In this document: positions 7,286 to 28,784 of the stretch, in pieces
Position numbering within the stretch: the first letter of the stretch is position 1
How the letters are laid out: each line of letters opens with the position of its first letter
From: Alcaligenes aquatilis
GTDB lineage: Bacteria; Pseudomonadota; Gammaproteobacteria; Burkholderiales; Burkholderiaceae_B
Direction of reading: 5' to 3'
DNA: 64,000 bases
Assembly: GCF_003076515.1 (NCBI RefSeq)
Contig: NZ_CP022390.1
Location: 1,860,001-1,924,000 of the forward strand
Made by a program: the position numbers and the translations under genes
The notes under the pieces: generated by a model
What the model was told of the DNA's origin: nothing
The model's input: the letters and a program-made list of their open reading frames with translations, nothing else
Database searches by the model: none

Positions 7286-7305
7286 TGCTGTGTTCGCCTC
7301 CCGCC

Positions 7306-9378: not shown

Positions 9379-9411
9379 CTCGCTCTCCTGGCCTGCTCCA
9401 GCCCTATAGGC

Positions 9412-9900: not shown

Positions 9901-9925
9901 TGCGATATCCTTGAAAAAACGGCAA

Positions 9926-10924: not shown

Positions 10925-10929
10925 TAAAA

Positions 10930-11910: not shown

Positions 11911-11919
11911 GTCTTGCTC

Positions 11920-12843: not shown

Positions 12844-14178
<1,335 letters not shown>

Positions 14179-14205
14179 GCTTTACTTTTCCATGCTTGGG
14201 CCTGT

Positions 14206-15483
14206 TCAGCCCCCGAACCTGAATTTCAACCGTCCCAAAACCGAACTGACCTTGTTTTGTGACAGCCCCTGCCTGCGTCCCGTCAGCCCCGATGCCAGAC
14301 TTTGCAAGGCACGGGTATACGGGTCCTTCTCATCCACTTGCACCAAAATCTTGCCCAGCCCGGCGCTGCGCATATGCCCAAGACGCCGATCCGGTAGAAC
14401 GGCTGCCAGTTCCAGGCCAAAGCGCTCTGCAATGGCTTGCCCCGAAAAGCCGTAAGCCGGATCAAACTGATTGACCACCAGACGCACATTGGCCAGCGCA
14501 TCGAACTGCGCACGCACAGCCATGAATTCCGCCAGGGATACCAGCGCTCCCATACTTTGGTCGGTTACCACCAGCACCTCGTCCACCAGCGACTCCAGTT
14601 CCACCAGAAAACGCGGATTAGGAAAGCCACCGGCATCAATGACCAGACAGCCCATGCGTTCACGCAAATAACTGCACAGGCCCAGCGAATCCTCCAGACT
14701 GATCTGATTCAAGGTGTTCACATCGGCGGGCAAAGACAGCAGGTTCAAACCGCTACTGTGCTGCGCCAGCGCCGAGTGCAGCATGGTGTCGTCCATGCGA
14801 TGACGCTGCGAGGCGGCCTGAATAAAGTCAAAATCCGACCCCAAGCCCATGTACAACGCACAGTCTCCGGTAGGCGCTCCCAGATCCAGCAAACCCACCC
14901 GCTCGGTCAGCGGCACCAGCTCAATCGGTAAAGGCTTGGCCGAAGACACACCGCGAACTTCCTTGCCCACGCGATTCATCTCTTGCTGCAAGAGCCAGGC
15001 CAGACTGCTGGCGGCGGTGCTGCAACCGACGCCAATACGCGCGCCCATCAACAAGACACTGCGAAAAGGCTTGTCCAGCAAAGGGCTATGCTGGGCCTGC
15101 CCCAGTTTTTCTATCAGCACCTGCAACTGATGATGCAGGTCTTCAGTCGTATCCAGGTTCAGGAACTCATTGGCACCCGCACGCAAGGCATTCACAGGCC
15201 CCTGCGGCACCGAGGCCCGTCCCACCGCCACACGCTGCACACTGGCATCGAGTCGGGCCAGGCCGCGCACCAAAGTCATGACCGGTCCGTTTTCATCCCC
15301 ATGCTGTCCATGCACAAAGTCAAAAAACACCAAAGGTTCTGCTTGCTTGGCCAACTCCCGGCGCAAACTCTCGGTCGTGGGCTCAATCGCCCTTACCGTC
15401 AGCAAGCCGGCGGCTGCCGTATTGATCATCACAGCCAGCTCGGGGTGCTCTGTACACAAGAGATATTCCCGATATCGTTGCAC
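14206..15483 (-). CDS. tadZ: TadZ/CpaE-like pilus localisation ATPase
   Basis: MinD/ParA-like protein of 425 residues that places the Tad machine at the pole in other species. The first ~130 residues form a receiver-like domain without clear phosphorylation residues. The P-loop reads GARIGVGCST near residue 155, a divergent version of the deviant Walker A in which the expected lysines are replaced by Arg and Cys. A later LVIDAGGFPNP corresponds to Walker A-prime/B. The start is GTG at 15483, supported by GGAGTGGTGAC upstream. It sits between the secretin and tadA genes. Confidence 0.88.
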   Translation of the reverse strand: MQRYREYLLCTEHPELAVMINTAAAGLLTVRAIEPTTESLRRELAKQAEPLVFFDFVHGQHGDENGPVMTLVRGLARLDASVQRVAVGRASVPQGPVNALRAGANEFLNLDTTEDLHHQLQVLIEKLGQAQHSPLLDKPFRSVLLMGARIGVGCSTAASSLAWLLQQEMNRVGKEVRGVSSAKPLPIELVPLTERVGLLDLGAPTGDCALYMGLGSDFDFIQAASQRHRMDDTMLHSALAQHSSGLNLLSLPADVNTLNQISLEDSLGLCSYLRERMGCLVIDAGGFPNPRFLVELESLVDEVLVVTDQSMGALVSLAEFMAVRAQFDALANVRLVVNQFDPAYGFSGQAIAERFGLELAAVLPDRRLGHMRSAGLGKILVQVDEKDPYTRALQSLASGLTGRRQGLSQNKVSSVLGRLKFRFGG

Positions 15484-15500
15484 GTCACCACTCCACGCGC

Positions 15501-16835
15501 TTAGCGCGAAAACCCTGGCATCTGCTCGTAACCATGACGGCCCAGCAAGAAGTAGCCCCAGGCATTGGGTGCGTCATCCAGCTTTTCCTGACGACCACCC
15601 GGCAAGGCAATCGTGGCACCTTTCTGGATAGGTTTGATCAGACGGGGCGTGACGACAATGACCAGTTCCAGCTCTTTCTGGCTGTACTGCACGTTACGGA
15701 AAAAACTGCCAAGAATCGGCAGATCACCCAGGAAGGGGATCTTTTTGACGGCGGCTGCGGTTTGGCGCGACACCAGGCCACTGATGATGTAGCTCTGGCC
15801 ATCACCCAGCTCGATCGTGGTATCGGCACGGCGGGTGCGCAGGGAGGGCATCACGCCGCCACCGGGCATTTCCACCACACGTGAGTAATCCAGATCACTG
15901 GCTTCCGGGGCAACCTTCAAGGCAATACGTTCGGCAGACAGCACGGTTGGCGTCACCGTCAAACCAATCCCGAAAGGCTTGTATTCCACCGTGGTCGTTC
16001 CCAAACCGCCCGAGCTGGGGATAGGGATTTCGCCACCGGACAGAAAGCTGGCGCTATGGCCGGACATGGCGACCAAAGTCGGCTCGGCCAGCACACGGGC
16101 CAAGCCATTTTGTTCCAGCAGATTCAAGGCCGCACTAAAGTTGCGCGAGTTATACGCCAGACTCAAACCGCCGCTTAAAGCCTGAGGCAGCAAGTTCACC
16201 CCGCCCGACCAGGGTTTACCGCCAATGGCATTGGCACTCAGGCCGATGTCCTTCATCACTTCACGGGAAACCTCCACCACTTTGACTTCTACCTGCACCA
16301 TGCCACTGGTGCTGACCTCGGACAGGTCCAGCACATCCGCATCCGGGCCGGAGCCAGAACGTGCTGCGGCCATGGCATTTTGATGATCCAGCAAAGACGG
16401 ACTACTCCCCGTAATCAAGGACTGCTGCCCGGCACTGGAGATCTGTGCCGACAGAGGGCTGCCCGATTGCGCCAGTTGCTGCTGCACCTGGCTGGTCACT
16501 TCAATAGTCCAGCGATCCGGGTTGGTGCGACCCGGCATCCAGACACGCAAATCCGCTGTGCCTGCGCGCTTGCCAATCAGCAGAACCTCGCCCCGCTGTC
16601 CGGCCGACGCAGACAGGATCTGCACATCCGCCACACTTTCATCGCTGATCGCCACACGCTGCGGCACTTGCGACAAGCGCAAAACATCCTGATCGTTAGC
16701 GACCAGGCGAATCACCTTCTGGCTGGCGCTGGTCTGCGTCGTTTGTGCCATGGCTGGAATCGGTGCCAGACCCAACAAGCAGAGCGCGTACCAGCACCCC
16801 AAACCCAGACCCGCTTTTTTGATTTTCTGTCTCAT
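15501..16835 (-). CDS. rcpA: RcpA/CpaC secretin of the Flp pilus
   Basis: Outer-membrane channel of about 444 residues. A signal peptide covers the N-terminus (GCWYALCLLGLAPIPAMAQ). A pilus-specific N-domain follows (LRLSQVPQRVAISDESVADV), then a BON-like part, and the secretin domain with IPFLGDLPILGSFFR, the classic C-terminal secretin signature. The ATG at 16835 is preferred over an upstream TTG because it starts directly before the signal peptide. Neighbours are cpaB upstream and tadZ downstream. Confidence 0.92.
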   Translation of the reverse strand: MRQKIKKAGLGLGCWYALCLLGLAPIPAMAQTTQTSASQKVIRLVANDQDVLRLSQVPQRVAISDESVADVQILSASAGQRGEVLLIGKRAGTADLRVWMPGRTNPDRWTIEVTSQVQQQLAQSGSPLSAQISSAGQQSLITGSSPSLLDHQNAMAAARSGSGPDADVLDLSEVSTSGMVQVEVKVVEVSREVMKDIGLSANAIGGKPWSGGVNLLPQALSGGLSLAYNSRNFSAALNLLEQNGLARVLAEPTLVAMSGHSASFLSGGEIPIPSSGGLGTTTVEYKPFGIGLTVTPTVLSAERIALKVAPEASDLDYSRVVEMPGGGVMPSLRTRRADTTIELGDGQSYIISGLVSRQTAAAVKKIPFLGDLPILGSFFRNVQYSQKELELVIVVTPRLIKPIQKGATIALPGGRQEKLDDAPNAWGYFLLGRHGYEQMPGFSR

Positions 16836-16919
16836 GTGTTTAATCCATGCTGCCTTGCGTCGCTTCCCGTCAGCCCCCACAGCTTGGCTGACCCGTCCCC
16901 ACAACAAGATGTGTATTGC

Positions 16920-17873
16920 TTAATACTGAATGACCTCTAAACGGCCCCCGCGGATGACTTCCGTGCGGCGCGGCGGCGCCGCATACGGTTCACCATTGGC
17001 TTTGGCTCGTGCCTGAACCTGCTCTTTTTCAGTCTGGCTGATGGCAAACTCGCGCAAGCCCAAACCGGCCATCGCACGGTTTTCCGGCAATTTCAAGGCG
17101 TCGCGTTGATCCGCGTCCAGCCCCGCACGCGCTGGAATCAAGCCCGCAAATTCGGGGAATAAAGAAGCATCAGGCAGGTTTTCGTCCTGGGGCGCACGCA
17201 AGACCAATTGCAGGCCGCCGCTGCGGCTGGCCAGCAAAAGCTCATTGACCGACTCCACAGGGACCGCCAACATGGCATGGCGGGCTTGGGTCTCGGCACG
17301 ATTGTTGGTATTGGCTTGCACCGGATCCGGCCCGGACAGCGAGGCACCGCCGTAGGCCAGCACGCGCACACGCGGCATCAACAAACGGGCTTGCGTGTCG
17401 TTGACCTCGTTACCACTATTGAAGGTGATGAAAATATCAACCAGATCGCCCGGCTCCACCCTATGACTGGCGCCGGTAATGACATCAATGGGGATGGTAA
17501 CGGCACGCTCGCCATCCTCCAGATAACTGGCCAGGCTTTTGGCGATGAAACTACTGAGCACCGGCTGGCCCTGGCCCAAATCAAAACGCAAGGTTTTGCC
17601 GGTCAAGGCCTCCAAGTTATTGAAAGACTGAGCGGGAGCGGCAGGCCACTGCGCCAGCTCCAGGGCATCGGCCTGCAAGGTTTCCCCGGCTTTCACATCT
17701 CGTTTGACCAGAACCACCGCCTGCAAGCTGGCCGCAGGCTCTGTGTTTTGCGTGCTGACTACTGGCTGGATGACCTCGGGTTTGGGCTTCATACCCAGGT
17801 ACAAGGCAAACGCAACCAGCACGGCTGCGATCAGCAATAAAAGGACTGCTGCCCCCTTCATAATGCCGCTCAT
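16920..17873 (-). CDS. cpaB: CpaB/RcpC Flp pilus assembly protein with SAF domain
   Basis: Protein of 317 residues with an N-terminal membrane anchor (AAVLLLLIAAVLVAFALYLGM) and a periplasmic SAF domain (~residues 50-115: VLVKRDVKAGETLQADAL). The RcpC/CpaB domain follows, with GERAVTIPIDVITGASHRV and VEPGDLVDIFITF. It is thought to modify or stabilise the secretin. Its ATG overlaps the upstream stop (TAATG), indicating coupled translation. Confidence 0.92.
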   Translation of the reverse strand: MSGIMKGAAVLLLLIAAVLVAFALYLGMKPKPEVIQPVVSTQNTEPAASLQAVVLVKRDVKAGETLQADALELAQWPAAPAQSFNNLEALTGKTLRFDLGQGQPVLSSFIAKSLASYLEDGERAVTIPIDVITGASHRVEPGDLVDIFITFNSGNEVNDTQARLLMPRVRVLAYGGASLSGPDPVQANTNNRAETQARHAMLAVPVESVNELLLASRSGGLQLVLRAPQDENLPDASLFPEFAGLIPARAGLDADQRDALKLPENRAMAGLGLREFAISQTEKEQVQARAKANGEPYAAPPRRTEVIRGGRLEVIQY

Positions 17874-18361
17874 TAATGTGGTCTCCGTAGTACGAGTAAT
17901 GTCTTGGCGCTTAAGCTGCGCAATGGATCTGCCTGATCTTCTTCAGGTCTGAGCAGATCCAGGGTTTGAGAAAGGATTCCGGGTTCAATATCCAGCGTCA
18001 GGGAAAGCTGGGCGCAGTCGTACTGCGGCTCCGAGGTACAGGCCTGGGACTGAACATCCGCACTAAGATCGCCAAACCAATGCAAAAACGCATCGCTCTT
18101 GGCTTGGCCCTTGCCATAATCTTTCGCCAGTACGTCATTCAAAAAGGGGGCAATTTCATCCACGGTTTTGACGTGCATCGTCACTTGCCGGGAAAGGTCA
18201 CCGACCAGATGGCTCATTTTCTGCTTGGCCAAAAACAAAGAGCTAAACGTGATGATGCCGCTGAAGATCAGCAGTAGAACCCCCACCATCAAGGCGAATT
18301 CGATAGCAGCAATGCCTTGCTGGTGCTGCGTGGCAGGCAAGGACTGGGCTAACCGAGTCAT
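17873..18361 (-). CDS. tadE: TadE-like minor pilin
   Basis: Pseudopilin-like protein of 162 residues. Near the N-terminus QQGIAAIEFALMVGVLLLIFSG matches the TadE/TadF pattern: a short charged leader, a glycine cleavage point and a long hydrophobic helix with Glu at position 5 after the processed residue. It is probably processed by the prepilin peptidase encoded at 18879. It overlaps the previous gene by 4 bp (ATGA) and cpaB by 1 bp. Confidence 0.88.
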   Translation of the reverse strand: MTRLAQSLPATQHQQGIAAIEFALMVGVLLLIFSGIITFSSLFLAKQKMSHLVGDLSRQVTMHVKTVDEIAPFLNDVLAKDYGKGQAKSDAFLHWFGDLSADVQSQACTSEPQYDCAQLSLTLDIEPGILSQTLDLLRPEEDQADPLRSLSAKTLLVLRRPH

Positions 18362-18897
18362 GGCGTGCCCCCCATTGCGCCCACTTCGCCAGCGACCAGC
18401 AAATTAATTTGCGCATTGCCCTTTAATTGTTCGGGCACCACCAAGGCAAACAAGGTATCGGGAGCGAAACGGGGAATCAGCGGGGCTTGAAGATAGTCGT
18501 ACACAATGCCAACACGCAGCTCTTCACTATGCAAATCCGTGGTGATGCGTACATGCTCACTGCCCACCCAACTGCTTAACCACTGCACCTGATCGGCAGC
18601 CACTGCCTTGGCGCGATCCGCGCGTGCCTGCAAACGATCCGGGTTAAGCATAGGGCCGCCCGGCCCAGCACCTGGCTCAATCAGGGCAGCACGGGCACCG
18701 GATTCGGCCGCAAAATTCAAAGACTGCTGGGCGGTCATGATCAAACCGAACGTCAGCAAGCCATACATAAAGAGAAACAGCAGGGGAAAAACCAATGCAA
18801 ACTCCAGCGCGTAGGCTCCTTGTTGATACTTTTTATCGACACCACGCCGTTTTGCGAATTGGCCCTCTCGTGGGGGCTTTATTGATTGTGAATCCAT
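18358..18897 (-). CDS. TadE-like minor pilin
   Basis: Second TadE/TadF-type pseudopilin, about 179 residues. The hydrophobic stem (YQQGAYALEFALVFPLLFLF) starts at residue ~27 with the conserved Glu. The start is either 18897 or an ATG at 18921; the former is chosen because a G-rich site (GGGGTGGGT) lies just upstream and the overlap with tadV is then only 19 bp. Transcribed in the tad operon between tadV and the other tadE-like gene. Confidence 0.85.
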   Translation of the reverse strand: MDSQSIKPPREGQFAKRRGVDKKYQQGAYALEFALVFPLLFLFMYGLLTFGLIMTAQQSLNFAAESGARAALIEPGAGPGGPMLNPDRLQARADRAKAVAADQVQWLSSWVGSEHVRITTDLHSEELRVGIVYDYLQAPLIPRFAPDTLFALVVPEQLKGNAQINLLVAGEVGAMGGTP

Positions 18898-19388
18898 ACC
18901 CACCCCATTGTTGCAAGGCATAACCAGGCCCCCAAAGGCACACTACGTGCCTTGACCCGGACGCCCGGCAAAGCAAATCCGTACTTACGTTCCAACGATG
19001 GAATCAGCACCAGTACCAAGGCATGCAAACCGGCCAATACCGTGCCAAACAACACCACCATGCCGGCTTCTTTCCACCCCAAGGCCAGGCCCAGCACCGC
19101 CATCAGCTTTACATCGGCTGCCCCCATCAAACGTAATAACCAGACTGGATAAAACACGATCAGGGCGGCTGCAAAACCGATCAAGGAGTCCCCCCAGCCC
19201 GCCACCCATCCCAAAGGAAGGCCATAAGACAGGCTGACAACAAGCTTATGCAGCAGAACCGCTAAACCATAAAAAACTAATAAGGCATTAGGGATTTTCC
19301 GTAATCTCAGATCGTTATAAATAATCTGAACGGAAAAGAAAAACAGAATAAAAACAAAAGAAAGATTAATTAAAACAGACATAAGCAT
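18879..19388 (-). CDS. tadV: TadV/CpaA prepilin peptidase
   Basis: Inner-membrane aspartyl protease of 169 residues that removes the leader of Flp and of the TadE-like proteins. The two catalytic aspartates are in IIYNDLRLRKIPN (~residue 26) and GAADVKLMA (~residue 92). Five or six hydrophobic segments are visible. The ATG at 19388 lies within the 3' arm of a large hairpin at 19385-19435; an in-frame ATG at 19382 is an alternative. No clear ribosome site is seen, which together with the hairpin suggests low or controlled translation. Confidence 0.92.
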   Translation of the reverse strand: MLMSVLINLSFVFILFFFSVQIIYNDLRLRKIPNALLVFYGLAVLLHKLVVSLSYGLPLGWVAGWGDSLIGFAAALIVFYPVWLLRLMGAADVKLMAVLGLALGWKEAGMVVLFGTVLAGLHALVLVLIPSLERKYGFALPGVRVKARSVPLGAWLCLATMGWVWIHNQ

Positions 19389-19435: not shown

Positions 19436-19451
19436 TCGAACAAAACTACAA

Positions 19452-19658
19452 TTAGGGCGTACCGCCTGTTCCAGGAGCTCCTGCGGAAGTACCACCCTTA
19501 ATAGCATCAGAGACCGCCTTAAACATAGCTTTAAGATCTGTTCCTACAGCGGTCAGCGTAGCAATAATCGCCACAGCGATCAGCCCCGCGATCAGGCCAT
19601 ATTCAATAGCCGTTGCACCGTCTTCATCGTTCCAGAATTGCTGAAGTTGAGTCTTCAT
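19452..19658 (-). CDS. flp: Flp-family type IVb pilin
   Basis: Major pilin subunit of about 68 residues. The leader MKTQLQQFWNDEDG is followed by ATAIEYGLIAGLIAVAIIA, with the Gly cleavage point and the Glu-Tyr pair at positions 5-6 of the mature protein that define Flp pilins. The C-terminus is short and Gly/Thr/Pro-rich. The ATG at 19658 is chosen over 19670 because it gives the normal leader length; GGGGACGG is just upstream. First gene of the tad locus. Confidence 0.96.
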   Translation of the reverse strand: MKTQLQQFWNDEDGATAIEYGLIAGLIAVAIIATLTAVGTDLKAMFKAVSDAIKGGTSAGAPGTGGTP

Positions 19659-19675
19659 GACCGTCCCCATTTAAA

Positions 19676-19703: not shown

Positions 19704-19729
19704 CTAGAGGCCCCTCGGGGCACAACACT

Positions 19730-19745
19730 TTGCCAAATTTGGCAA
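19730..19745. promoter_or_regulatory. perfect 16-bp palindrome upstream of flp
   Basis: TTGCCAAATTTGGCAA is fully symmetric and lies 72-87 bp upstream of the flp ATG, where an operator is expected. The binding protein is unknown. Confidence 0.4.
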
Positions 19746-20335: not shown

Positions 20336-22093
20336 ATGAACATGAATCTCAAGCACCACTTGTCGCTGGCCCTGCCCAGAAAAAAAACCCCCGATATCAT
20401 CATCAGCTTGGGTTTATGCATGGGTCTGGCCACAACAGGTTCAGAAAGCTGGGCAGACGCCCCCTTGCGGGGGAACCCGGTTGACTCTTTGCCGCCTATT
20501 AATGCGCCTACACCCAGCACCCGCACGCCCTCTTTACATATCCCGCCCGCAGCAGCCCAAAGTCAGTTGCAACAACAACTGCAACTGCAAGTGGTGGTGC
20601 GCAGCTTTGATGTCAGCGGCAGTCGCAGTATTCCTTTTGAGCAGATCACCGCTATTTTGGAACCCCTGGCCGGCAAAACACTGAGCATTGCCCAGTTGAT
20701 CAATGAGGTGAACAAAATCACCGCCCTGTATCAACAACAAGGCTACCCGCTGTCCTTTGCCATCTTGCAGCAGCAGGACTTCTCGCAAGGACATATCAAG
20801 GTCACGGTGGTGGAGGGCCATGTGGGCAGTGTTCGTATTGAGGGCGATCCAGGACGCAGCCAGGCACGCATCGAACGCATTGCCCAGGCCATGGTGGATG
20901 AAAAGCCGCTGACCCAGCGCACGCTGGAGCGCACCATGAATCTGCTGCGTACCATCCCTGGCCTGAAAATCGATCCCAAGCTGGACATGCCCGTACGCAC
21001 CGATGGCGCCTCTGAACTGCTCATCAATGCCCAGCACAAATCCTTCAGAGCCAATGCCAGTGTCGCGGAAATGGGCTCCAGCAAGCAGGCTCTGGTACAA
21101 CTGAGCGCCAATAGCCTGACTCCCTTGGGCGAAGAGCTAAAACTGACCGCCGCCATTCCTACCCACTCCGAAGACGTCAAATATGTCAGCGGTAACCTGA
21201 CCATCCCCCTGACCGGCAACGGCTTGAACCTGGAAATTGACGGTTATCACTACCGCTCCGAGCCGCGCGACGAAGTGCTGGAAAGCCAGGGCTGGAACCG
21301 TAAGGTCATCAACGAACGCATCGGGGCGGCGATCAGTTATCCCTTTATTCTGAACAATCAGCGCAGCCTTAAAGGCACAGCGGGCTTTTATGCCAGCCGC
21401 TCCCTGGACGATTACACCCACAAAACGCTGGATAATGTCTGGATTGAAAACACCACGGACGTACGCGCTCTGAAGGCCGAATTGCGCTATACCGATGCCT
21501 CGCCACGCCAATCTCGCGAGGTCAATTTCGGGGTATATAAAGGCCTGGATGCCATGGGCGCCCGCAAATCCCTGAACACCTATTTGCAGCGTGATGCCGA
21601 ATCGGATCTGGATTTGGACTTCACCCGCTGGACAGCCTCTTTCAAACAGAACCTGGCTTTGCCAGGCCAGTTCGGCATGAGTTTCTCAGCCAGCGGCCAG
21701 TACAGCTCGAACGTCTTACCAAACTCCGAACAGATTTCTTTTGGCGCCTGGCGGCATGGCTATGGTTACCCACAAGGCGAACTGGCGGGCGACAAAGGCG
21801 TGGGCGCTACGCTGGAGATCAACCGACGCTTCACAAACTCTTCCACCTGGCTCAACAACATTCAGCCGTATATCGCCTATGACTGGGCGCGCGCCTGGTA
21901 CAACCTGGACCGACTCAACAGCTACAACAACCGCAACCTGCGATCTGCTGCGATTGGGGTCCGGCTATCGAACAACAAGCATTATTTGTTTGACATCAAT
22001 GTCGCCAAACCACTGGGAGATTTGCCGGTTAACTCCGATGAACGCAAGCTACGTTTAAACACTAACTTCCTGTTCTTTTACGACGGGTTTTAA
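20336..22093 (+). CDS. TpsB-type (FhaC/ShlB/HecB) outer-membrane transporter, orphan
   Basis: Two-partner-secretion transporter of 585 residues. A signal peptide ends near SESWA, then a Pro/Gln-rich linker. A first POTRA domain (~residues 82-160) starts VVVRSFDVSGSRSIPFEQI, with KITALYQQQGYPLSFAI and VTVVEGHVGSVRIEGD. A second POTRA domain follows, then a 16-strand barrel from ~residue 220 ending in terminal Phe (FLFFYDGF). The lid-loop signature, usually VRGY/F, reads RHGYGYPQGELAGDKG, so it is divergent. No TpsA exoprotein with a filamentous-haemagglutinin N-domain is adjacent. The downstream genes are repeat lipoproteins, which raises the question of whether these are its clients. A terminator follows at 22121. 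Confidence 0.9.
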   Translation: MNMNLKHHLSLALPRKKTPDIIISLGLCMGLATTGSESWADAPLRGNPVDSLPPINAPTPSTRTPSLHIPPAAAQSQLQQQLQLQVVVRSFDVSGSRSIPFEQITAILEPLAGKTLSIAQLINEVNKITALYQQQGYPLSFAILQQQDFSQGHIKVTVVEGHVGSVRIEGDPGRSQARIERIAQAMVDEKPLTQRTLERTMNLLRTIPGLKIDPKLDMPVRTDGASELLINAQHKSFRANASVAEMGSSKQALVQLSANSLTPLGEELKLTAAIPTHSEDVKYVSGNLTIPLTGNGLNLEIDGYHYRSEPRDEVLESQGWNRKVINERIGAAISYPFILNNQRSLKGTAGFYASRSLDDYTHKTLDNVWIENTTDVRALKAELRYTDASPRQSREVNFGVYKGLDAMGARKSLNTYLQRDAESDLDLDFTRWTASFKQNLALPGQFGMSFSASGQYSSNVLPNSEQISFGAWRHGYGYPQGELAGDKGVGATLEINRRFTNSSTWLNNIQPYIAYDWARAWYNLDRLNSYNNRNLRSAAIGVRLSNNKHYLFDINVAKPLGDLPVNSDERKLRLNTNFLFFYDGF

Positions 22094-22120
22094 ACACGGC
22101 ACCTGTTGCACAGTTCCCCC

Positions 22121-22150
22121 AAGGCCATCACAAGATGGCCTTTTTTGTTT
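22121..22150 (+). terminator. rho-independent terminator after the TpsB gene
   Basis: AGGCCATC pairs with GATGGCCT over a 4-base loop, followed by a T-run. It separates the TpsB gene from the lipoprotein operon. Confidence 0.85.
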
Positions 22151-22190
22151 TGCATTCCAACGAATTTCAAGCTCAGGTGTTACGAAAAAC

Positions 22191-22200
22191 GTTACGTAAC
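22191..22200. promoter_or_regulatory. GTTACGTAAC palindrome upstream of the first repeat lipoprotein gene
   Basis: Perfect 10-bp palindrome located 148 bp upstream of the sigma54 -24 element at 22348. An additional half-site, TGTTACG, lies at 22179-22185. The same palindrome recurs at 24873 upstream of the second lipoprotein gene. The spacing fits an enhancer site for a sigma54 activator; a MarR operator is an alternative. Confidence 0.55.
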
Positions 22201-22347
22201 AGGAACGGAACACTCCACAAAAACAGCCTTCAACAAGCTTAAATGAGCCTTGAAACCTGGCAGCATGATTTCAAAAGAAAACAAAAAACCAACCTAACCA
22301 TTTGATTAAAAACAATAAAACCAAAACAAAGCATCACCAAACAAATC

Positions 22348-22363
22348 TGGCACGATACTTGCT
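22348..22363 (+). promoter_or_regulatory. sigma54 (-24/-12) promoter of the first repeat lipoprotein gene
   Basis: TGGCACGATACTTGCT matches the full consensus TGGCACG-N4-TTGCT with GG and GC separated by 10 bases. The predicted transcript start is about 12 bases after the GC, leaving a leader of ~45 bases to the ATG at 22420. Confidence 0.88.
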
Positions 22364-22419
22364 TAATGTCTATCAAGAGCCCCTTGAGGGCGTGCTCACA
22401 CTTCAGATCGGAGTCAGAC

Positions 22420-24234
22420 ATGAAAGCAAGGAATTCAGCAAGAAACGCCTCGACCCAACGCAAGCTGCAACGCGCCGTTGTCGCTACCTTAGTCATCAGC
22501 GCCGCCGTTCTGGCCGGTTGCTCCTCGCGCGGTGGGGTACGCGATGGTCTGGATGTATCGGTTCGCCCACCTGTTGTTGATCCCAACCTGCCCAACCCCG
22601 GCGATGGCGACCATGGCGGCGGAGACAACGGCGGTGGAGATAACGGCGGTGGGGACAATGGTGGCGGCGATAACGGCGGCAAGGACACTAGCCTGACACA
22701 AAATGCGCTGGGCAATCTGGGCCAGGCAGTGGACAACGTAGTGCCCTTGAACCTGAGCAAAACGGGCAATCAACTGGGCAAAACGCTCGATAGCGCACTC
22801 AAACCCGTCACCGACATCGTGACCGACACCACACGCACCGTCGGCGGCGTGACTGGACTGGGCCAACCGGTCAACGGTCTGACAAATCAAGTCGGTGGCG
22901 TTGTGACCAATCTGGGCGAGCAATTAGGTCAGACAGGCCTGCCCCTGAATCTGGGTGAAGGCGCTGGCGGCCTGCTATCCCATCTGGGTCAAGCCGTCGG
23001 TTCGGTCGGCGGCTTGCTGGTTAACGATCCCAACAACCCCAACCCGCTGGGCAACACCCTGCACCACGCCACCAAAGGCGTAGAAGTGCTGACCGGCTCC
23101 TTGCTGGGTGAAGGCAGCCTGCTGCACCCATTGACCTCACAACTGGGCCTGGACGGAATCTTGTTGGCGGGCAGCGGCGAACCCATCCTGCAACCTGCAC
23201 TGGGCAATGTCGGGCAAACCGTGGACAACATTCTGCCGCTGGGCCTGAACCCGATTCTGGGTGATGTGGGTGGCGCCTTGGATAACACGGTGGCACCGGT
23301 CGTTGCCACCGTCACCAATGTGACTCAGCAAGTGGGTGATGGCCTAGGAGTAGGCCAACCCATCAATGCGTTGCTCGGGGGTGTCGGTAGTGCCTTGGGG
23401 AACGTGGGTAGCCAGTTGGACAATGCAGCGCCTCTTGGACTGGGCGGTGTCGTAGGACATCTGGGACAGGCTGTCGCCTCGGCAGGCGGGTTGTTGCACG
23501 CGACAGATGCAAACACCAATCCCTTGGGCAACACCTTGAATCACGCCACCCAAGCCGTCGCTTCCCTGACAGGTGGCTTAGGCGGCATCACAGGCGGTGA
23601 AGGGGGTGGCCTGCTGGCACCTGTAACCGGGCTGCTAGGTGGCCTTGGTGGCGGAGATGGAGCGAACGGCGGTTTGCTGGCACCCGTCACTAACCTGGTC
23701 GGTGGTTTGACCGGCGGTTTGGGCGGCGGTGATGCTGCCAACGGTGGGCTGCTGGCCCCGGTTACTGGTTTGGTCAGTGGACTCACTGGCGGCTTGGGCG
23801 GCGGCGACGGCGCGAACGGTGGGCTACTGGCCCCGGTTACCAACCTGGTCGGTGGCTTGACCGGAGGCTTGGGCGGTGGTGAGGTCGCCAACGGCGGACT
23901 ATTGGCCCCCGTCACTAACCTGGTTGGCGGTTTAACGGGTGGCTTGACTGGTGGTGACGCATCCAACGGTGGCTTGCTAGCCCCTGTAACCGGCCTTCTG
24001 GGCGGTATCACAGGCAGTGTTTCGATTGGTGGTGGCGCCGCCGTAGAAGGCCAGGCAGGTGGCGGCTTACTGGCACCGGTTACCGGTTTGGTCGGCGGCC
24101 TGGTGGGTGGATTGACCGGCGGCGTCAACGTGCAGGCAAATGCAGACACAAGCGGCGGTGGGCAAGCCAATGGCGGCTTGCTGGCGCCCGTAACCGGCTT
24201 GCTCGGTGGCCTGCTGGGAGGTGGCCGTCAATGA
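22420..24234 (+). CDS. Gly/Leu-rich repeat lipoprotein with DNGGG stalk and LLAPVT repeats
   Basis: About 604 residues; the ATG at 22420 has GGAG 8 bases upstream. The signal peptide has lipobox VLAGC near residue 35. A short DNGGG stalk follows (five units, 22609-22680). Residues ~90-385 contain two tandem copies of a ~150-residue module marked by GQAVDNVVPL / GQTVDNILPL, TGLGQPVNGL / VGQPINALL, GGVVTNLGEQL, and DPNNPNPL / DANTNPL. The C-terminal ~220 residues are 25-residue repeats of the form NGGLLAPVTNLVGGLTGGLGGGDAA. The end is a conserved NGGLLAPVTGLLGGLLGG plus GRQ. Automated tools may call such proteins collagen-like, but there is no Gly-X-Y periodicity. I do not recognise a characterised homologue. 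It overlaps the MarR gene by 4 bp and has its own sigma54 promoter. A surface adhesin or matrix role is inference. Confidence 0.82.
   Translation: MKARNSARNASTQRKLQRAVVATLVISAAVLAGCSSRGGVRDGLDVSVRPPVVDPNLPNPGDGDHGGGDNGGGDNGGGDNGGGDNGGKDTSLTQNALGNLGQAVDNVVPLNLSKTGNQLGKTLDSALKPVTDIVTDTTRTVGGVTGLGQPVNGLTNQVGGVVTNLGEQLGQTGLPLNLGEGAGGLLSHLGQAVGSVGGLLVNDPNNPNPLGNTLHHATKGVEVLTGSLLGEGSLLHPLTSQLGLDGILLAGSGEPILQPALGNVGQTVDNILPLGLNPILGDVGGALDNTVAPVVATVTNVTQQVGDGLGVGQPINALLGGVGSALGNVGSQLDNAAPLGLGGVVGHLGQAVASAGGLLHATDANTNPLGNTLNHATQAVASLTGGLGGITGGEGGGLLAPVTGLLGGLGGGDGANGGLLAPVTNLVGGLTGGLGGGDAANGGLLAPVTGLVSGLTGGLGGGDGANGGLLAPVTNLVGGLTGGLGGGEVANGGLLAPVTNLVGGLTGGLTGGDASNGGLLAPVTGLLGGITGSVSIGGGAAVEGQAGGGLLAPVTGLVGGLVGGLTGGVNVQANADTSGGGQANGGLLAPVTGLLGGLLGGGRQ
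23665..24039 (+). repeat. 75-bp tandem repeats encoding 25-residue LLAPVT units (first lipoprotein)
   Basis: Units begin with the Asn codon at 23665, 23740, 23815, 23890 and 23965, an exact 75-bp period. Copies differ by synonymous and a few non-synonymous changes. Two more distant LLAPVT units follow further downstream. Confidence 0.88.
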
Positions 24235-24821
24235 TGAATAAAGTCATGAACCCGGTCAGTTTGCCGGTGAGCCGTCACCCTGGCGCACAAAGTGCCGGGG
24301 CCCGCTCCAACTGGTCCTCGCACAACGATGAACACAGCATGCTTTCAGAAAAGATGCTGATGGATCTGGGCAAGATGCTGGGTCGTCAGTTCACCATCTA
24401 CGCAGAAGCTCTGAAAGCCAGCTTGGCCGAAGAGGCAAACATGCCTCTGAACGATTTCAAGGCCTTGGAATACATCATGGAATTCGATGCCTTGCCCACT
24501 GGTCAGTTAGCACACCTGATGGACTTGAGTGCCAGCGGTGTCAGCGCCCTGATCAACCGCCTTGAACATCGGGGTTACATCACACGGGGCCGTCACCCCC
24601 TGGACAAGCGCGTAATTGCCTTGCACCCGGTGATGGAAAAGTGTCGCGAGGTTCTGGCTGTGAAAGAGCGTGCCATTAATCAGGCCATCAACACCGCAGC
24701 GAATCAAAACCCGGCCCAGCTAATTGCCATGTACGACTTTCTGGTCGATAGCATGAGCACCTTCAGGCAGAACACCAAAGCCTGGCTGGATGCCAAGGCC
24801 CTGGTGCCACGAACCTCCTGA
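24231..24821 (+). CDS. MarR-family transcriptional regulator
   Basis: Protein of 196 residues. A ~35-residue basic/Ser-rich N-terminal tail precedes a MarR winged helix: FKALEYIMEFDALPTGQLAHL, then recognition helix DLSASGVSALINRLEHRGYI and wing RGRHPLDKRVIAL. It overlaps the lipoprotein gene by 4 bp (ATGA), so it is co-translated with it. It is a paralogue of the regulator at 28254, sharing the LDLS/MDLS-SG-ALI-RLE core. The ligand and operator are unknown; control of the lipoprotein genes is inferred from linkage. A terminator follows directly. Confidence 0.9.
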   Translation: MMNKVMNPVSLPVSRHPGAQSAGARSNWSSHNDEHSMLSEKMLMDLGKMLGRQFTIYAEALKASLAEEANMPLNDFKALEYIMEFDALPTGQLAHLMDLSASGVSALINRLEHRGYITRGRHPLDKRVIALHPVMEKCREVLAVKERAINQAINTAANQNPAQLIAMYDFLVDSMSTFRQNTKAWLDAKALVPRTS

Positions 24822-24840
24822 GCGCCCTGCCCTCCCTCTA

Positions 24841-24872
24841 CCGAACCGCTGCTTGTCAGCGGTTCTTTTTTT
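24841..24872 (+). terminator. rho-independent terminator after the first MarR gene
   Basis: GAACCGCTG pairs with CAGCGGTTC over a 5-base loop, followed by a run of T residues. It ends immediately before the second GTTACGTAAC site. Confidence 0.9.
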
Positions 24873-24882
24873 GTTACGTAAC
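24873..24882. promoter_or_regulatory. GTTACGTAAC palindrome upstream of the second repeat lipoprotein gene
   Basis: Identical to the site at 22191 (11 bp shared: GTTACGTAACA) and 104 bp upstream of the sigma54 -24 element at 24986. An additional half-site CGTAACA lies at 24907-24913. Recurrence at the same relative place in two promoter regions argues for function. Confidence 0.55.
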
Positions 24883-24985
24883 ACGTTCCACCCAAAGCCC
24901 AAAACCCGTAACAAATAGCCCTCTTTTTTTTGCTTACTTTGCGCCAAACCAAGAGCACATGCGGCCTATCGCAAACCCAATTAAT

Positions 24986-25001
24986 TGGCATGCAAATTGC
25001 T
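24986..25001 (+). promoter_or_regulatory. sigma54 (-24/-12) promoter of the second repeat lipoprotein gene
   Basis: TGGCATGCAAATTGCT matches the -24/-12 consensus with correct 10-base spacing between GG and GC. The predicted start leaves a leader of ~42 bases before the ATG at 25055. Confidence 0.85.
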
Positions 25002-25054
25002 TATACAAGAATCAGGAAGCAAGCAAGTACCCCGATCATTTATTGGAGCAAGCA

Positions 25055-27091
25055 ATGCATAAAAATACAGACAGCAAGAAACCAGGCCTACGCCTGACAC
25101 TCCTGGCCACCTTAATGGCCAGCACATTGACCTTGACCGCCTGCGGCAGCTTATTAGGAGGCGGCAGTGGTGGTGGCGGTGGAGAAACCCCCACCAACCC
25201 TGGCCCAGGTACGGGCGGACCAGGTAACGGCGGCGATAACGGCGGTGGCGACAACGGCGGTGGCGACAACGGCGGCGGCGACAACGGCGGTGGTGATAAC
25301 GGCGGCGGTGATAACGGCGGTGGCGACAACGGCGGCGGCGACAACGGCGGTGGTGATAACGGCGGCGGCGACAACGGCGGCGGCGACAACGGCGGCGGCG
25401 ACAACGGCGGCGGCGACAACGGCGGCGGCGACAACGGCGGCGGCGACAACGGCGGCGGCGACAACGGCGGTGGCGATAACGGCGGCGGTGATAACGGCGG
25501 TGGTGATAACGGCGGTGGTGATAACGGCGGAAACCCTCACACTCCAGGCCCCCTTGAAACTACGCTGAATAATGTCGGCGAAGCCGTCGACAATGTCCTG
25601 CCAGTCGGTCTACAAGATACCGGTGGCAAACTGGGCAAAACACTGGACACCGTGGTTGCTCCTGTCGTGGACACAGCCACGGGTCTGACTCAACAAATTG
25701 GCGGCGCAACCGGCTTGGGCCAGCCCATCAATGGTCTAACACAGCAAGTAGGTGGTGTTGTGACCAATCTGGGCGAGCAACTGGGCAATAGTGGCCTGCC
25801 CCTGAATCTAGGCCAAGGCGTAGGCGGTCTCTTAACGGGATTGGGCAACGCGGTGGGCAGTGCAGGCGGTTTGCTGCATGCTGACGCCAACAACCCTAAT
25901 CCATTGACCGCCGTGCTGGGCCACGCCACAGGTGGCGTGGCGGCACTGACCGACTCCCTCTTGGGCGAAGGCAGCTTGTTGCATCCCATCACCGGCCAAC
26001 TCGGTTTGGGCGGTTTGCTGGACGGTACCGATGCCGCCCCCATTCTTGAACCTTCCCTTGCCAACGTAGGCCAGACTGTCGACAACATCTTGCCTGTTGG
26101 CTTGAACCCCATCCTGGGCAATGTCGGTGAAACCCTGGATACCGTGGTCGCTCCTGTAGGTGCCACGGTGACCAATATCACTCAACAAGTGGGCGATGGC
26201 CTAGGTGTTGGCCAGCCCATCAACGCCCTATTGGGCGGCGTAGGTAGTGCCCTGGGCAATGTGGGTACTCAGATCGATGGCGCCGCCCCGCTGGGTCTGG
26301 GCGGTGTCGTTGGACACTTGGGCCAGGCCGTTGCCTCGGTCGGTGGACTGGTTCACCAAACTGACAGCAATACAAACCCGCTGGGCAACACCTTGAACCA
26401 CGCCACACAAGCCGTCGCCTCCCTGACCGGTGGCCTGACAGGTAACGGCGAAGGTGGCTTGCTCTCACCAGTTACCGGCTTGCTCGGCGGCCTGACAGGA
26501 GGCTTGGGCGGTGGTGACGCTGCCAACGGCGGTTTGCTGGCTCCCGTCACAAATCTGGTCGGTGGCCTGACCGGAGGACTGGGTGGTGGTGACGCCGCTA
26601 ACGGCGGCTTGTTGGCTCCTGTCACGGGTCTGGTCGGTGGTTTGGTCGGCGGTTTGGGTGGTGGCGAAGGTGCCAACGGCGGTTTGCTGGCTCCCGTCAC
26701 GAATCTAGTGGGTGGCCTGACCGGGGGACTGGGTGGTGGCGAAGGTGCCAACGGCGGTTTGCTGGCTCCCGTCACGAATCTGGTGGGTGGCCTGACCGGA
26801 GGACTGGGTGGTGGTGATGCTGCCAACGGCGGTTTGCTGGCTCCCGTCACAAATCTGGTGGGTGGCCTGACCGGGGGACTGGGTGGTGGTGACGCCGCCA
26901 ACGGCGGTTTGCTGGCTCCTGTAACTGGCTTGGTCGGTGGTTTGACCGGCGGGCTTTTGGGCGGAGCAGCCCCTTCGGTAGATGGCGGTGCCTCTGGCAG
27001 CGTGAATGCCGGTGGTGGGACCACCAACAACGGCGGCTTGCTGGCCCCGGTAACCGGCCTGCTCGGCGGCTTGCTGGGCGGCCCCCGCTAA
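25055..27091 (+). CDS. Gly/Leu-rich repeat lipoprotein with long DNGGG stalk and LLAPVT repeats
   Basis: About 678 residues; the ATG at 25055 has GGAG 8 bases upstream. The lipobox LTAC is at ~residues 27-30. A Gly/Pro linker leads to ~20 consecutive GGGDN units (~residues 59-158), then two tandem ~150-residue modules like those of the 22420 protein (GEAVDNVLPV, GQTVDNILPV, VGQPINALL, DANNPNPL, DSNTNPL). These are followed by 25-residue NGGLLAPVT repeats and the terminal NGGLLAPVTGLLGGLLGG plus PR. The main difference from its paralogue is the four-fold longer stalk. There is no Gly-X-Y collagen pattern. It is likely outer-membrane anchored, with the DNGGG stalk as a flexible, possibly Ca-binding spacer; this is inference. 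Confidence 0.82.
   Translation: MHKNTDSKKPGLRLTLLATLMASTLTLTACGSLLGGGSGGGGGETPTNPGPGTGGPGNGGDNGGGDNGGGDNGGGDNGGGDNGGGDNGGGDNGGGDNGGGDNGGGDNGGGDNGGGDNGGGDNGGGDNGGGDNGGGDNGGGDNGGGDNGGGDNGGGDNGGNPHTPGPLETTLNNVGEAVDNVLPVGLQDTGGKLGKTLDTVVAPVVDTATGLTQQIGGATGLGQPINGLTQQVGGVVTNLGEQLGNSGLPLNLGQGVGGLLTGLGNAVGSAGGLLHADANNPNPLTAVLGHATGGVAALTDSLLGEGSLLHPITGQLGLGGLLDGTDAAPILEPSLANVGQTVDNILPVGLNPILGNVGETLDTVVAPVGATVTNITQQVGDGLGVGQPINALLGGVGSALGNVGTQIDGAAPLGLGGVVGHLGQAVASVGGLVHQTDSNTNPLGNTLNHATQAVASLTGGLTGNGEGGLLSPVTGLLGGLTGGLGGGDAANGGLLAPVTNLVGGLTGGLGGGDAANGGLLAPVTGLVGGLVGGLGGGEGANGGLLAPVTNLVGGLTGGLGGGEGANGGLLAPVTNLVGGLTGGLGGGDAANGGLLAPVTNLVGGLTGGLGGGDAANGGLLAPVTGLVGGLTGGLLGGAAPSVDGGASGSVNAGGGTTNNGGLLAPVTGLLGGLLGGPR
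25229..25531 (+). repeat. 15-bp tandem repeats encoding (GGGDN)n stalk
   Basis: One GGDN unit followed by 19 GGGDN units of exactly 15 bp each; copies vary only at third positions (gac/gat, ggc/ggt). Such runs change copy number readily by slippage or recombination, always in frame. Confidence 0.93.
26525..26974 (+). repeat. 75-bp tandem repeats encoding 25-residue LLAPVT units (second lipoprotein)
   Basis: Units start with the Asn codon at 26525, 26600, 26675, 26750, 26825 and 26900, an exact 75-bp period. Neighbouring copies are nearly identical at DNA level, which suggests recent duplication or gene conversion; the last unit diverges at its end. Confidence 0.92.
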
Positions 27092-27097
27092 ACGGAA

Positions 27098-27123
27098 GGA
27101 TGGGGCGCTCAACCGCCCCATCC
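27098..27123 (+). other. strong hairpin between the second lipoprotein and the exported paralogue
   Basis: GGATGGGGCG pairs perfectly with CGCCCCATCC over a 6-base loop. No T-run follows, so it is more likely an mRNA stability or processing element between 27091 and 27195 than a terminator. Confidence 0.6.
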
Positions 27124-27194
27124 CTTATCCCCAGGAGCTCACTCATTCAGATTTGAAACGCCTGAGCAATCCTGATCTTCAGATGGAGTAAGTC

Positions 27195-28247
27195 ATGACT
27201 ATAAAGACACGTTTTACGTCCAGCAGGATCGTTTTGCTCAGCCTGACAGCCAGTCTGTTCTCTACGACTGCCCAGGCCGATTTGCTGGGAGCCAGCCCTC
27301 TCGCTGTTCCAGCAAATCTGAACCTGAGTCAAAACCTGAGAACAGCAGAAACAATGGTCGTCCAACCCGGCCCGCTTGAAACGAGCTTGGCAAATACAGG
27401 TCAAGCAGTAGATAACATTCTGCCTGTCGGATTGCGCGATTACGGACAGCGTGTTGGATTAAGCGCTGATCAAATACTAGACATCCAGGATATAGAGCCC
27501 TGGAGAGCTCGAATAATGGAAGCAATTGATCTAGGCACCATCATCGACAGCGAGGGCGTCAACGTCACCCTGGACGAAACTGAACATGGCATCGATATTG
27601 TGGGCAAGCTCATTGAAAACGCCAATCTCCCACTCAACGCAGGACAAGCGGCGGGCAACTTGCTGTATGGAGTCAGTGATACGGTCGGTAGCGCAAGAGG
27701 CCTGCTCCATAACGACCCCAACAATCCCAACCCGATTAGCTCCACGCTGGAAAACCTAACGGGCAGCCTTGCCGCGACAAGCGATGCACTCTTGCATGAC
27801 AGCAATCAGCTACAACCTTTGCTCGGTGCTCAAACCACAGCACTCAATAACAACGCCGGTTTACTGACCCCTGTCACCAATCTGGTCGACGGGTTAACTG
27901 GTGGCTTAGCAGGCGGGAACGTCGGCAATGACGGGCTTCTGTCCCCCATTACTGGTCTGGCCCATTCCCTGACTGGCGGACTTGCGGACGGCACAGAACA
28001 AAACGCTGGCCTGCTCGCCCCCGTCACCCACCTGGTCAGCAGCGTGACGAGTGGTCTTGGTGGCGACATGGCCAATAACCCAGGCTTGTTGGCCCCCATC
28101 ACCGGTCTGCTGGGCAATGGTTTGCTTAGCCCACCTGCGGCCACGACCGAAACGCCTCCTGGCAACACAGTCGCCACCACCAATGTCGGTCTACTAAGCC
28201 CCGTCACCGGACTGATTAACGGTTTGCTGGGCGCTCCCCCGCGCTAA
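27195..28247 (+). CDS. exported paralogue of the repeat lipoproteins (no lipobox, no stalk)
   Basis: Protein of 350 residues with a standard signal peptide (IVLLSLTASLFSTTAQA then DLLGA) and no lipobox cysteine. One copy of the module is recognisable: ANTGQAVDNILPVGLRDYG, ANLPLNAGQAAGNLLYGV and HNDPNNPNPI. Four to five degenerate LLAPVT-type units and the terminal GLLSPVTGLINGLLGAPPR follow. GGAG is 6 bases before the ATG at 27195. It lies 103 bp after the second lipoprotein gene with no promoter of sigma54 type in between, so probably the same transcript. It could be a soluble or secreted partner of the two lipoproteins; no characterised homologue is recognised. Confidence 0.78.
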   Translation: MTIKTRFTSSRIVLLSLTASLFSTTAQADLLGASPLAVPANLNLSQNLRTAETMVVQPGPLETSLANTGQAVDNILPVGLRDYGQRVGLSADQILDIQDIEPWRARIMEAIDLGTIIDSEGVNVTLDETEHGIDIVGKLIENANLPLNAGQAAGNLLYGVSDTVGSARGLLHNDPNNPNPISSTLENLTGSLAATSDALLHDSNQLQPLLGAQTTALNNNAGLLTPVTNLVDGLTGGLAGGNVGNDGLLSPITGLAHSLTGGLADGTEQNAGLLAPVTHLVSSVTSGLGGDMANNPGLLAPITGLLGNGLLSPPAATTETPPGNTVATTNVGLLSPVTGLINGLLGAPPR

Positions 28248-28253
28248 GGATGT

Positions 28254-28784
28254 GTGCATATGCCTAATAAACAGCCCCTGAGAACGGATTGGACCGAGCC
28301 AGAAGCAAGGGACGAGGTTTTATCAGGGCATATGCAAAGCGACATTGTGCGCATGATGCTGCGCCAGTTTGATGTCTACCTGGAGGCAAACAAAACCCAG
28401 TTGGCACAAGCAGCGGGCTTGAGCCTGAATGAATACAAGGCTCTGGAGTTCGTACTGGAGTTCAAACCTCTGTCTCCCGGCAAGCTGGCCCAGCTACTGG
28501 ACTTGAGTCCCAGTGGTACGCAGGCTTTGATTACACGCTTGGAAAGCGCCGGATATCTGCTGCGCAAGCCGCACCCGCGCGACGGGCGCATGACCAGCCT
28601 GTATCCCAACCAAGAGCGCTGCAAGCGCCTGATTACTGATATGAACCTGCCTGGCCATCACATCATGGATGCCACGGCACACTACAACCCCAAGCAATTG
28701 GCTGCACTTTACGATTTTCTCTTCAAGAGCCTAAGCCACCTACGCAAGGAGGCTTTGGAGAGGCTAAAACACAAACCCAGCTAG
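28254..28784 (+). CDS. MarR-family transcriptional regulator (paralogue of 24231)
   Basis: Protein of 176 residues with a MarR winged helix: YKALEFVLEFKPLSPGKLAQL, recognition helix DLSPSGTQALITRLESAGYL and wing KPHPRDGRMTSLY. C-terminal helices QLAALYDFLFKSLSHLRKEAL parallel those of the first MarR protein. AAGGA sits 7 bases before the ATG at 28254; a second ATG at 28260 is possible. It follows the exported repeat protein by 6 bp. The pattern of surface-protein gene followed by a MarR gene therefore occurs twice in this island. Confidence 0.9.
   Translation: MHMPNKQPLRTDWTEPEARDEVLSGHMQSDIVRMMLRQFDVYLEANKTQLAQAAGLSLNEYKALEFVLEFKPLSPGKLAQLLDLSPSGTQALITRLESAGYLLRKPHPRDGRMTSLYPNQERCKRLITDMNLPGHHIMDATAHYNPKQLAALYDFLFKSLSHLRKEALERLKHKPS

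Follow-up and report, generated by a model that had tools for sequence, protein, structure and literature searches.

A TpsB transporter clade and a Flp/Tad-linked enhancer-binding protein track PF15984 lipoproteins in Alcaligenes aquatilis and its relatives

Introduction

A described locus of similar gene content to the one examined here is the Flp pilus cluster of Burkholderia cenocepacia, for which, in the parts of the published accounts drawn on in this study, two putative operons were reported, BCAL1524-1520 and BCAL1525-1537 (PMC2753556). BCAL1523 and BCAL1524 are lipoproteins of the PF15984 family, of which 1690 sequences were counted in betaproteobacteria, and BCAL1522, an outer-membrane protein, was labelled 'heme utilization-related' (PMC10224339). 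BCAL1524 was found in outer-membrane vesicles and its loss lowers autoaggregation (PMC10303873), and contact with host-membrane vesicles induces the flp genes together with BCAL1520, BCAL1523 and BCAL1524 (PMC7970998). The BCAL1525-1537 operon includes the sigma54 activator BCAL1536 (PMC5295037, PMC2753556), which was counted among the predicted enhancer-binding proteins (PMC5295037), corresponds to GtrR (PMC9684580), and according to a review acts in complex with RpfR and BDSF (PMC11139211). Here, we describe an island of six genes, encoding a TpsB transporter, two PF15984 lipoproteins, an exported paralogue and two MarR regulators, in a stretch of 64,000 nucleotides from contig NZ_CP022390.1 of Alcaligenes aquatilis (hereafter the window, to which all coordinates refer), the genome of which (G000) consists of one contig of 3.84 Mb.

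A preliminary description of this DNA, made from the sequence alone, was aware of no characterised system with such a gene set. This has to be revised, since both the counterpart in B. cenocepacia, the Flp pilus cluster BCAL1520-1537, and the collagen-like lipoprotein BCAL1524 are already in the literature. Nor can novelty be claimed for the adhesins, because BCAL1524, a PF15984 member, is a published autoaggregation factor. What is new is that one TpsB clade tracks PF15984, and that the enhancer-binding protein of the adjoining Flp/Tad locus tracks PF15984 in the family. A further new finding is the resemblance of the lipoprotein genes to a sigma54 regulon.

Results

Gene content and comparison with described systems

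The island comprises six genes on the plus strand at 20336-28784, in the order TpsB, lipoprotein 1, MarR, lipoprotein 2, exported paralogue and MarR, and lies divergently from a Flp/Tad locus to its left, at 5882-19670 (Table 1). The open reading frames (ORFs) and domain matches thus bear out the gene set of the preliminary description, including the placement of the MarR genes after the first lipoprotein and after the third protein; the consensus -24/-12 promoters at both lipoprotein genes and the Gly-rich linkers and LLAPVT repeats were likewise recovered. Not part of that description were the divergent Flp/Tad locus with its sigma54 activator, the GTTACGTAAC sites, the assignment of the lipoproteins to PF15984 and the hemocyanin-like segment of the third protein. 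Based on gaps and on terminator-like hairpins followed by T-runs 3' of TpsB and of each MarR gene, the island probably forms three transcription units, TpsB, lipoprotein 1-MarR and lipoprotein 2-paralogue-MarR, two of which begin at exact -24/-12 elements.

Table 1. Positions of the island, its regulatory sites and the neighbouring pilus locus
Feature	Position	Strand	Remarks
Sigma54 enhancer-binding protein	5882..7333	-	Sigma54_activat and Fis-type HTH_8; far end of Tad locus; candidate activator of both promoters
Flp/Tad pilus locus	7306..19388	-	Pfam: Tad-domain, TPR, two T2SSF, T2SSE ATPase, secretin, prepilin peptidase
Flp prepilin	19452..19670	-	Recognised from sequence
TpsB (ShlB/FhaC-type), 585 amino acids	20336..22093	+	POTRA_2 and ShlB; PF15984-partnered clade; RGNPVDSLP signature after signal peptide
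GTTACGTAAC palindrome, putative upstream activator site 1	22191..22200	.	157 bp upstream of -24
Sigma54 promoter 1, TGGCACGATACTTGCT	22348..22363	+	Exact -24/-12 match
PF15984 (Collagen_mid) lipoprotein 1, 604 amino acids	22420..24234	+	Lipobox, GGGDN x4 linker, two predicted helical modules, LLAPVT repeats
MarR-family regulator 1	24231..24821	+	Start overlaps lipoprotein 1 stop by 4 bp
GTTACGTAAC palindrome, putative upstream activator site 2	24873..24882	.	113 bp upstream of -24; directly after terminator-like hairpin
Sigma54 promoter 2, TGGCATGCAAATTGCT	24986..25001	+	Exact -24/-12 match
PF15984 lipoprotein 2, 678 amino acids	25055..27091	+	Lipobox, GGGDN x19 linker, PF15984 stretches, LLAPVT repeats
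Exported paralogue, 350 amino acids	27195..28247	+	No lipobox; residues ~87-150 (27453-27644) resemble arthropod hemocyanin M domain
MarR-family regulator 2	28254..28784	+	Domain match

By gene content, with PF15984 lipoproteins and TpsB beside flp/tad genes and a sigma54 activator, the locus is of the BCAL1520-1537 type. Both clusters contain two PF15984 lipoproteins and an outer-membrane protein encoded divergently from flp, and a sigma54 activator within the cluster. One locus outside the family (L048, in genome G397 with three large replicons) has the gene order of BCAL1520-1524, and its TpsB gene, at 1686 bp, is as long as bcal1522, from which we infer that BCAL1522 is the TpsB of the PF15984-partnered clade, whereas BCAL1522 is not treated as a TpsB partner in the parts of PMC10224339 considered here. 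The activator encoded in the window may be the orthologue of BCAL1536, to judge from its position and family. Loci of this type outside the family differ from that of the window in the order of the genes (lipoprotein-lipoprotein-TpsB versus TpsB-lipoprotein-MarR), in their linker sequences and in the lack of a MarR match within 3 kb.

MarR genes adjoin the lipoprotein genes in 28 of the 31 TpsB-bearing family loci. Outside the family, no match to family-derived MarR profiles, which could miss other MarR types, was found within 3 kb of a lipoprotein or TpsB gene; matches were located farther away in L040, L047 and L055. To judge from these profile matches, the MarR pair was added in a particular lineage and does not belong to the core of the system.

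The TpsB protein matched both the POTRA_2 domain and the ShlB-type barrel that characterise type Vb transporters, and is 91% to 95% identical to its homologs in A. pakistanensis, A. faecalis AU14 and Alcaligenes sp. SORT26. Its structure model (mean predicted local distance difference test score, pLDDT, 81.8) gave CdiB and FhaC as the best structural matches, and also resembled BamA and TamA, including BamA with the lipoprotein RcsF (6t1w). These domains and matches, and the adjoining partner gene, are common to the type Vb systems FhaB/FhaC, CdiA/CdiB and HMW1A/B, but the partner here is a lipoprotein of about 370 to 890 amino acids that is predicted to be helical, is not a β-helix and has no TPS domain. 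No match to the TPS domain (PF05860), and hence no TPS-domain partner of the type Vb kind, was found in the whole genome of A. aquatilis, nor in the 8 window proteins that were domain-scanned, and PF05860 was absent from 16 of the 41 PF15984 genomes, A. aquatilis included. TpsB had been called an orphan, which holds for the TPS-domain proteins of the genome but not for the neighbourhood, in which a partner gene adjoins. In Slam (type XI) systems, an outer-membrane barrel that carries a TPR domain puts lipoproteins on the cell surface; these would be functional analogues, but the transporter differs, being of the ShlB type with a POTRA domain here.

Co-occurrence of TpsB and PF15984

A sample of 121 genomes from the family was searched with a PF15984 profile and with a TpsB profile, A1, built from 33 rows (the window protein and 32 of 39 TpsB ORFs, with L011, L012, L020, L024, L029, L039 and L052 left out); a lipoprotein set, A2, contained 27 rows (the 2 window lipoproteins and 25 of 47 sequences from relatives). 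PF15984 was present in 33 genomes, 32 of which contained the TpsB clade (427 to 912 bits), as did none of the 88 genomes without PF15984 (Fisher p 1.8e-28, not corrected for kinship). The single genome with PF15984 and no TpsB of this clade was G037, a draft in approximately 300 contigs. The remaining TpsB matches reached at most 268 bits, and some of these adjoin genes for TPS-domain proteins.

TpsB adjoins a lipoprotein gene in 31 of the 32 fetched family loci and is truncated in L020. The gene order of the island is unchanged in L005 to L007, in which the third protein is shorter. In wider surveys (E ≤ 0.001), matches were obtained in 10 of 300 genomes from the order, 7 of them outside the family, and in 5 of 369 genomes from the class, 4 besides our own. 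All 8 genomes outside the family with PF15984 above the cut-off have a locus in which TpsB is located within about 1.2 kb of a lipoprotein gene, in the order lipoprotein-TpsB (L040, L043, L045, L048, L052, L053, L055 and L056). Two further loci, L041 and L044, are ended by contig edges, L054 represents a weak match below the cut-off, and weak matches in G452 and G548 lie outside the fetched set.

Promoters and upstream palindromes

Both promoters contain the GG-N10-GC element and fit the pattern TGGCAYGN4TTGCW exactly, of which there are 12 sites in the whole genome as compared to 1 for the reversed pattern. The likely starts of the lipoprotein genes are at 22420 and 25055; the longer ORF starts at 22366 and 24959 would put the promoters at the edge of the gene or inside it. 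The palindrome GTTACGTAAC occurs at exactly 2 places in the genome, upstream of the two -24 elements, and its spacing is kept in L005 to L007 (157 to 158 bp and 113 bp).

To examine these elements across the family, we collected 40 lipoprotein genes, 2 from the window and 38 from relatives. Left out were L005 to L007 (the contigs of L005 and L006 being identical with those of L010 and L011), the fragments on L016 and L033, L021 (a contig of 3.6 kb) and L037 (where the ORF overlapped TpsB). A -24/-12 match of at least 9.5 out of 12 was identified upstream of 37 of the 40 lipoprotein genes versus 2 of 31 TpsB genes, and at least 2 GTTACG/CGTAAC half-sites upstream of 35 of 40 versus 0 of 31. In base-shuffled sequences, which keep base composition only, the corresponding frequencies were 0.8% and 0.55%. 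The 3 genes that scored below 9.5 were those of L011, for which the start had been set wrongly and which reached 11 out of 12 in a separate scan, and of L019 and L032, which scored 9.

The full palindrome was present upstream of 29 of the 40 genes, and 36 of the 57 palindromes in the 33 family genomes sit at lipoprotein genes, in 24 genomes. A binomial test accompanied these counts; its sequence fraction was set generously and took in matches outside the family, and kinship between the genomes was disregarded. Outside the family, at least 1 half-site was located upstream of 11 of the 16 scanned lipoprotein ORFs (one of two ORFs for L045 and L048; L044 left out), including genes with neither TpsB nor Tad in the stretch (L042, L046, L050 and L051).

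It was also noted that L019 and L032, which have no adjoining Tad genes and no activator, contain a -24/-12-like site of 10 out of 12 located 48 bp before the TpsB frame, the best score before the lipoprotein gene being 9.

The enhancer-binding protein and the Flp/Tad locus

The gene for the enhancer-binding protein was identified in 29 of the 33 PF15984 genomes of the family and in none of the 88 others, and in 35 of the 41 PF15984 genomes overall. It was missing in G035, G091, G569 and G770, in which GTTACGTAAC-type sites were also missing at the lipoprotein genes, as well as in G037, which is fragmented, and G036.

Flp/Tad genes were present in the fetched stretch of 28 of the 31 TpsB-bearing family loci, the exceptions being L009, L019 and L032, and of 6 of the 8 such loci outside the family. 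For PF13629, the N-domain of Tad-type secretins, 14 of the 41 genomes were searched. G569 was the only one of these with no match anywhere in the genome, so the pair of TpsB and lipoprotein can exist without Tad; a single match was located on another contig in both G035 and G091, and at a distance of about 34 kb in G770.

In the window, TadZ, RcpC and TadE-like proteins are presumably also encoded by the Tad locus, to judge from gene position, and the gene at 19452..19670 is taken to encode the Flp prepilin from a sequence motif. No good -24/-12 site was found upstream of flp, which may therefore be controlled differently from the lipoprotein genes. By eye, a perfect palindrome of 16 bp, TTGCCAAATTTGGCAA, was seen upstream of flp on the minus strand, at 19680-19760.

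In G044 (L009), an internal stop was reported in the activator gene, and no site precedes the lipoprotein gene that is left; from its sequence, this locus looks like a decaying system. The first lipoprotein gene seems to be missing between TpsB and MarR in this genome, and two GTTACGTAAC sites remain there. Outside the family, at 7949-9151 in L051, an orphan PF15984 gene adjoins a gene that matches the profile of the enhancer-binding protein (198 bits).

The PF15984 lipoproteins

Both lipoproteins matched PF15984 in two stretches each, with scores of 81.2 and 73.2 bits as compared to the curated cut-off of 31.1, whereas the profile scan gave no PF15984 call for the third protein (27195-28247). 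Each contains a lipobox cysteine, a Gly-rich linker and eight LLAPVT-type repeats. The model of lipoprotein 1 (mean pLDDT 62.9) contains two helical modules at residues ~92-241 and 257-388, with block means mostly above 80, which are tandem copies and are flanked by a disordered linker and by LLAPVT repeats of low confidence. The longest run of Gly-X-Y was only 4 triplets in either protein, and with helical modules predicted and no long collagen repeats, the name Collagen_mid is misleading. With the PF15984 proteins described as Bcc-CLPs (PMC10224339), the two lipoproteins have in common the above-cut-off PF15984 match, the low-complexity linker and the lipobox; they differ in the two tandem modules of lipoprotein 1, in the short Gly-X-Y runs and in modules predicted to be α-helical.

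The plan of lipobox, linker, module and repeats is kept in the relatives, with a length of roughly 370 to 890 amino acids and a linker that varies (GGGDN, NPTNPT, GGPGDP, PTPTPT or STG). The lipobox pattern was matched by 45 of 47 sequences from relatives, in all 45 of which the residue after the cysteine was G, S or A and in none Asp; the 2 others (the third copy in L030, and L055) also have a cysteine in a start that resembles a signal peptide. The GGGDN x19 linker of lipoprotein 2 is encoded by a 15-bp in-frame tandem repeat at 25226-25535, and since the copy number ranges from 12 to 22 across L005 to L008 and L012, the length of the linker changes without a frameshift.

Discussion

The best explanation, which we consider somewhat more probable than its opposite, is that the island represents the version found in Alcaligenes of a conserved cassette, usually coupled to Tad, in which TpsB brings lipid-anchored adhesins to the surface under a sigma54 activator. 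It builds on gene content, linkage, co-occurrence, the conservation of promoters and sites, and predicted folds. The enhancer-binding protein of the Tad locus would bind CGTTACGTAACG-type sites 110 to 210 bp upstream and activate the sigma54 promoters of the lipoprotein genes, most likely switching them on together with the sessile, pilus-bearing state. The lipoproteins would be lipidated and, having no Asp at position +2, sorted to the outer membrane, through which the dedicated TpsB would then move the chain. The amphipathic helical modules would be received by the POTRA domains of TpsB; for FhaC, the POTRA groove is described as suited to segments of amphipathic character (PMC5422565), which the modules could supply. 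Reach would come from the long disordered linker, which would cross either the pore or the surface layer, and the modules and LLAPVT repeats, oriented outwards, would act beside the pilus in sticking cells to one another or to surfaces. The MarR regulator, predicted to share a unit with a lipoprotein, probably acts in feedback.

The regulated surface-adhesion system of the preliminary description gains from the dedicated TpsB clade, the sigma54-type promoters and the autoaggregating relative, but is not wholly uncharacterised. Our data suggest an unrecognised way of surfacing lipoproteins, in which the regulator of the neighbouring pilus locus seems to switch the genes on. The odds appear even to us that they constitute a new class of type Vb system, in which a TpsB clade exports helical adhesins with no TPS domain, tethered by a lipid and a disordered linker, by a route separate from those known and wired to Tad by one sigma54 activator. 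If so, TpsB pores are not limited to TPS-domain proteins, and for many of the betaproteobacterial 'collagen-like' lipoproteins a regulator, a binding site and a likely route of export come into view. Two questions can then be put to a direct test, namely how such lipoproteins get to the cell surface and what turns on their expression next to the Tad pilus.

Several observations weigh against transport by TpsB under this activator. Every TpsB substrate known to us carries a TPS domain, and TPS-domain proteins are encoded elsewhere in the genome in 25 of the 41 PF15984 genomes. No TpsB was found in the full stretch of 19.5 kb in 6 PF15984 loci outside the family (L042, L046, L047, L049, L050 and L051), so that some members do without TpsB or use one in trans. 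One internal TGA each was reported in the TpsB matches of G077 and G120. The genome samples are related, and the p-values therefore overstate independence. The TpsB gene in the window has no sigma54 site (best score 6.5 out of 12), and the pore and its cargo are thus not one transcription unit there. G036 has the site and no match to the activator, with TadA in 3 pieces and TpsB truncated, and G238 has the activator but neither the site nor a sigma54 promoter. The reversed form of GTTACGTAAC, taken as a control, is likewise present at two places in the A. aquatilis genome and is more frequent in most others, so the evidence from this palindrome lies in its placement and not its frequency, and outside the family just 2 of 12 full palindromes are situated at a lipoprotein gene. 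Finally, the repeats and linker of lipoprotein 1 were modelled at low confidence.

TpsB could instead help to assemble or anchor the lipoproteins, as an assembly factor or surface tether, with the lipoproteins reaching the surface by another route. We regard this as unlikely, although the lipoproteins have no TPS domain, some PF15984 loci have no TpsB nearby, the TpsB model resembles BamA and TamA, including the BamA-RcsF structure, and the loops of HMW1B appear to tether its own adhesin (PMC5422565). Transport is favoured by POTRA_2 and by the top structural matches, FhaC and CdiB, both of which are secretion pores, as well as by the exclusive co-occurrence, which is the pattern of a substrate-transporter pair. 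It is improbable, and less so only by comparison with retention inside the cell envelope, that GTTACGTAAC is an operator for MarR and not an enhancer of the sigma54 activator. The palindrome is perfect and MarR accompanies the lipoproteins in most family loci, but half-sites were found at lipoprotein ORFs outside the family with no family-profile MarR within 3 kb, for which reason the site appears to fit the activator better. Moreover, L018 has half-sites and no MarR match, the lipoprotein genes of the 4 genomes G035, G091, G569 and G770, all of which have no activator, have no such site, and a distance of 110 to 210 bp is what enhancers typically show and would be long for steric repression.

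In the remaining alternative, which seems to us the least probable of those considered, TpsB would be an accessory of the pilus, and the lipoproteins would be matrix or envelope proteins kept in the periplasm or in vesicles. Tad genes accompany most of the TpsB-bearing family loci, and the presence of BCAL1524 in outer-membrane vesicles is by itself no proof of outward exposure. However, TpsB and the lipoprotein persist without Tad in the fetched stretch in the same 4 genomes, of which G569 has no PF13629 match and the others have theirs on another contig or about 34 kb away.

Other features of the island

The segment of the exported paralogue that resembles the hemocyanin M domain spans about 60 residues and scored 33.1 bits in Pfam (cut-off 20.8). 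It matched PDB chain 4yzw (AGAP004976-PA), which we take to be a mosquito prophenoloxidase, with an E-value of 3.4e-8, and an Alcaligenes relative, P0024, matched hemocyanin chain 3ixv with an E-value of 9.2e-11. Among 9 relatives scanned, 6 passed the Pfam cut-off, P0072 and P0075 scored below it and P0028 gave no match. In two protein searches, of a length range that excludes many full-length hemocyanins, the segment was found only in relatives of the paralogue, and all named matches were from Alcaligenes. It may have been captured from an animal (arthropod) or have arisen by convergence.

A gene for an M16-family peptidase of 950 amino acids, at 28958-31810, adjoins the island and is found in the same place in the Alcaligenes loci, but is probably unrelated to it.

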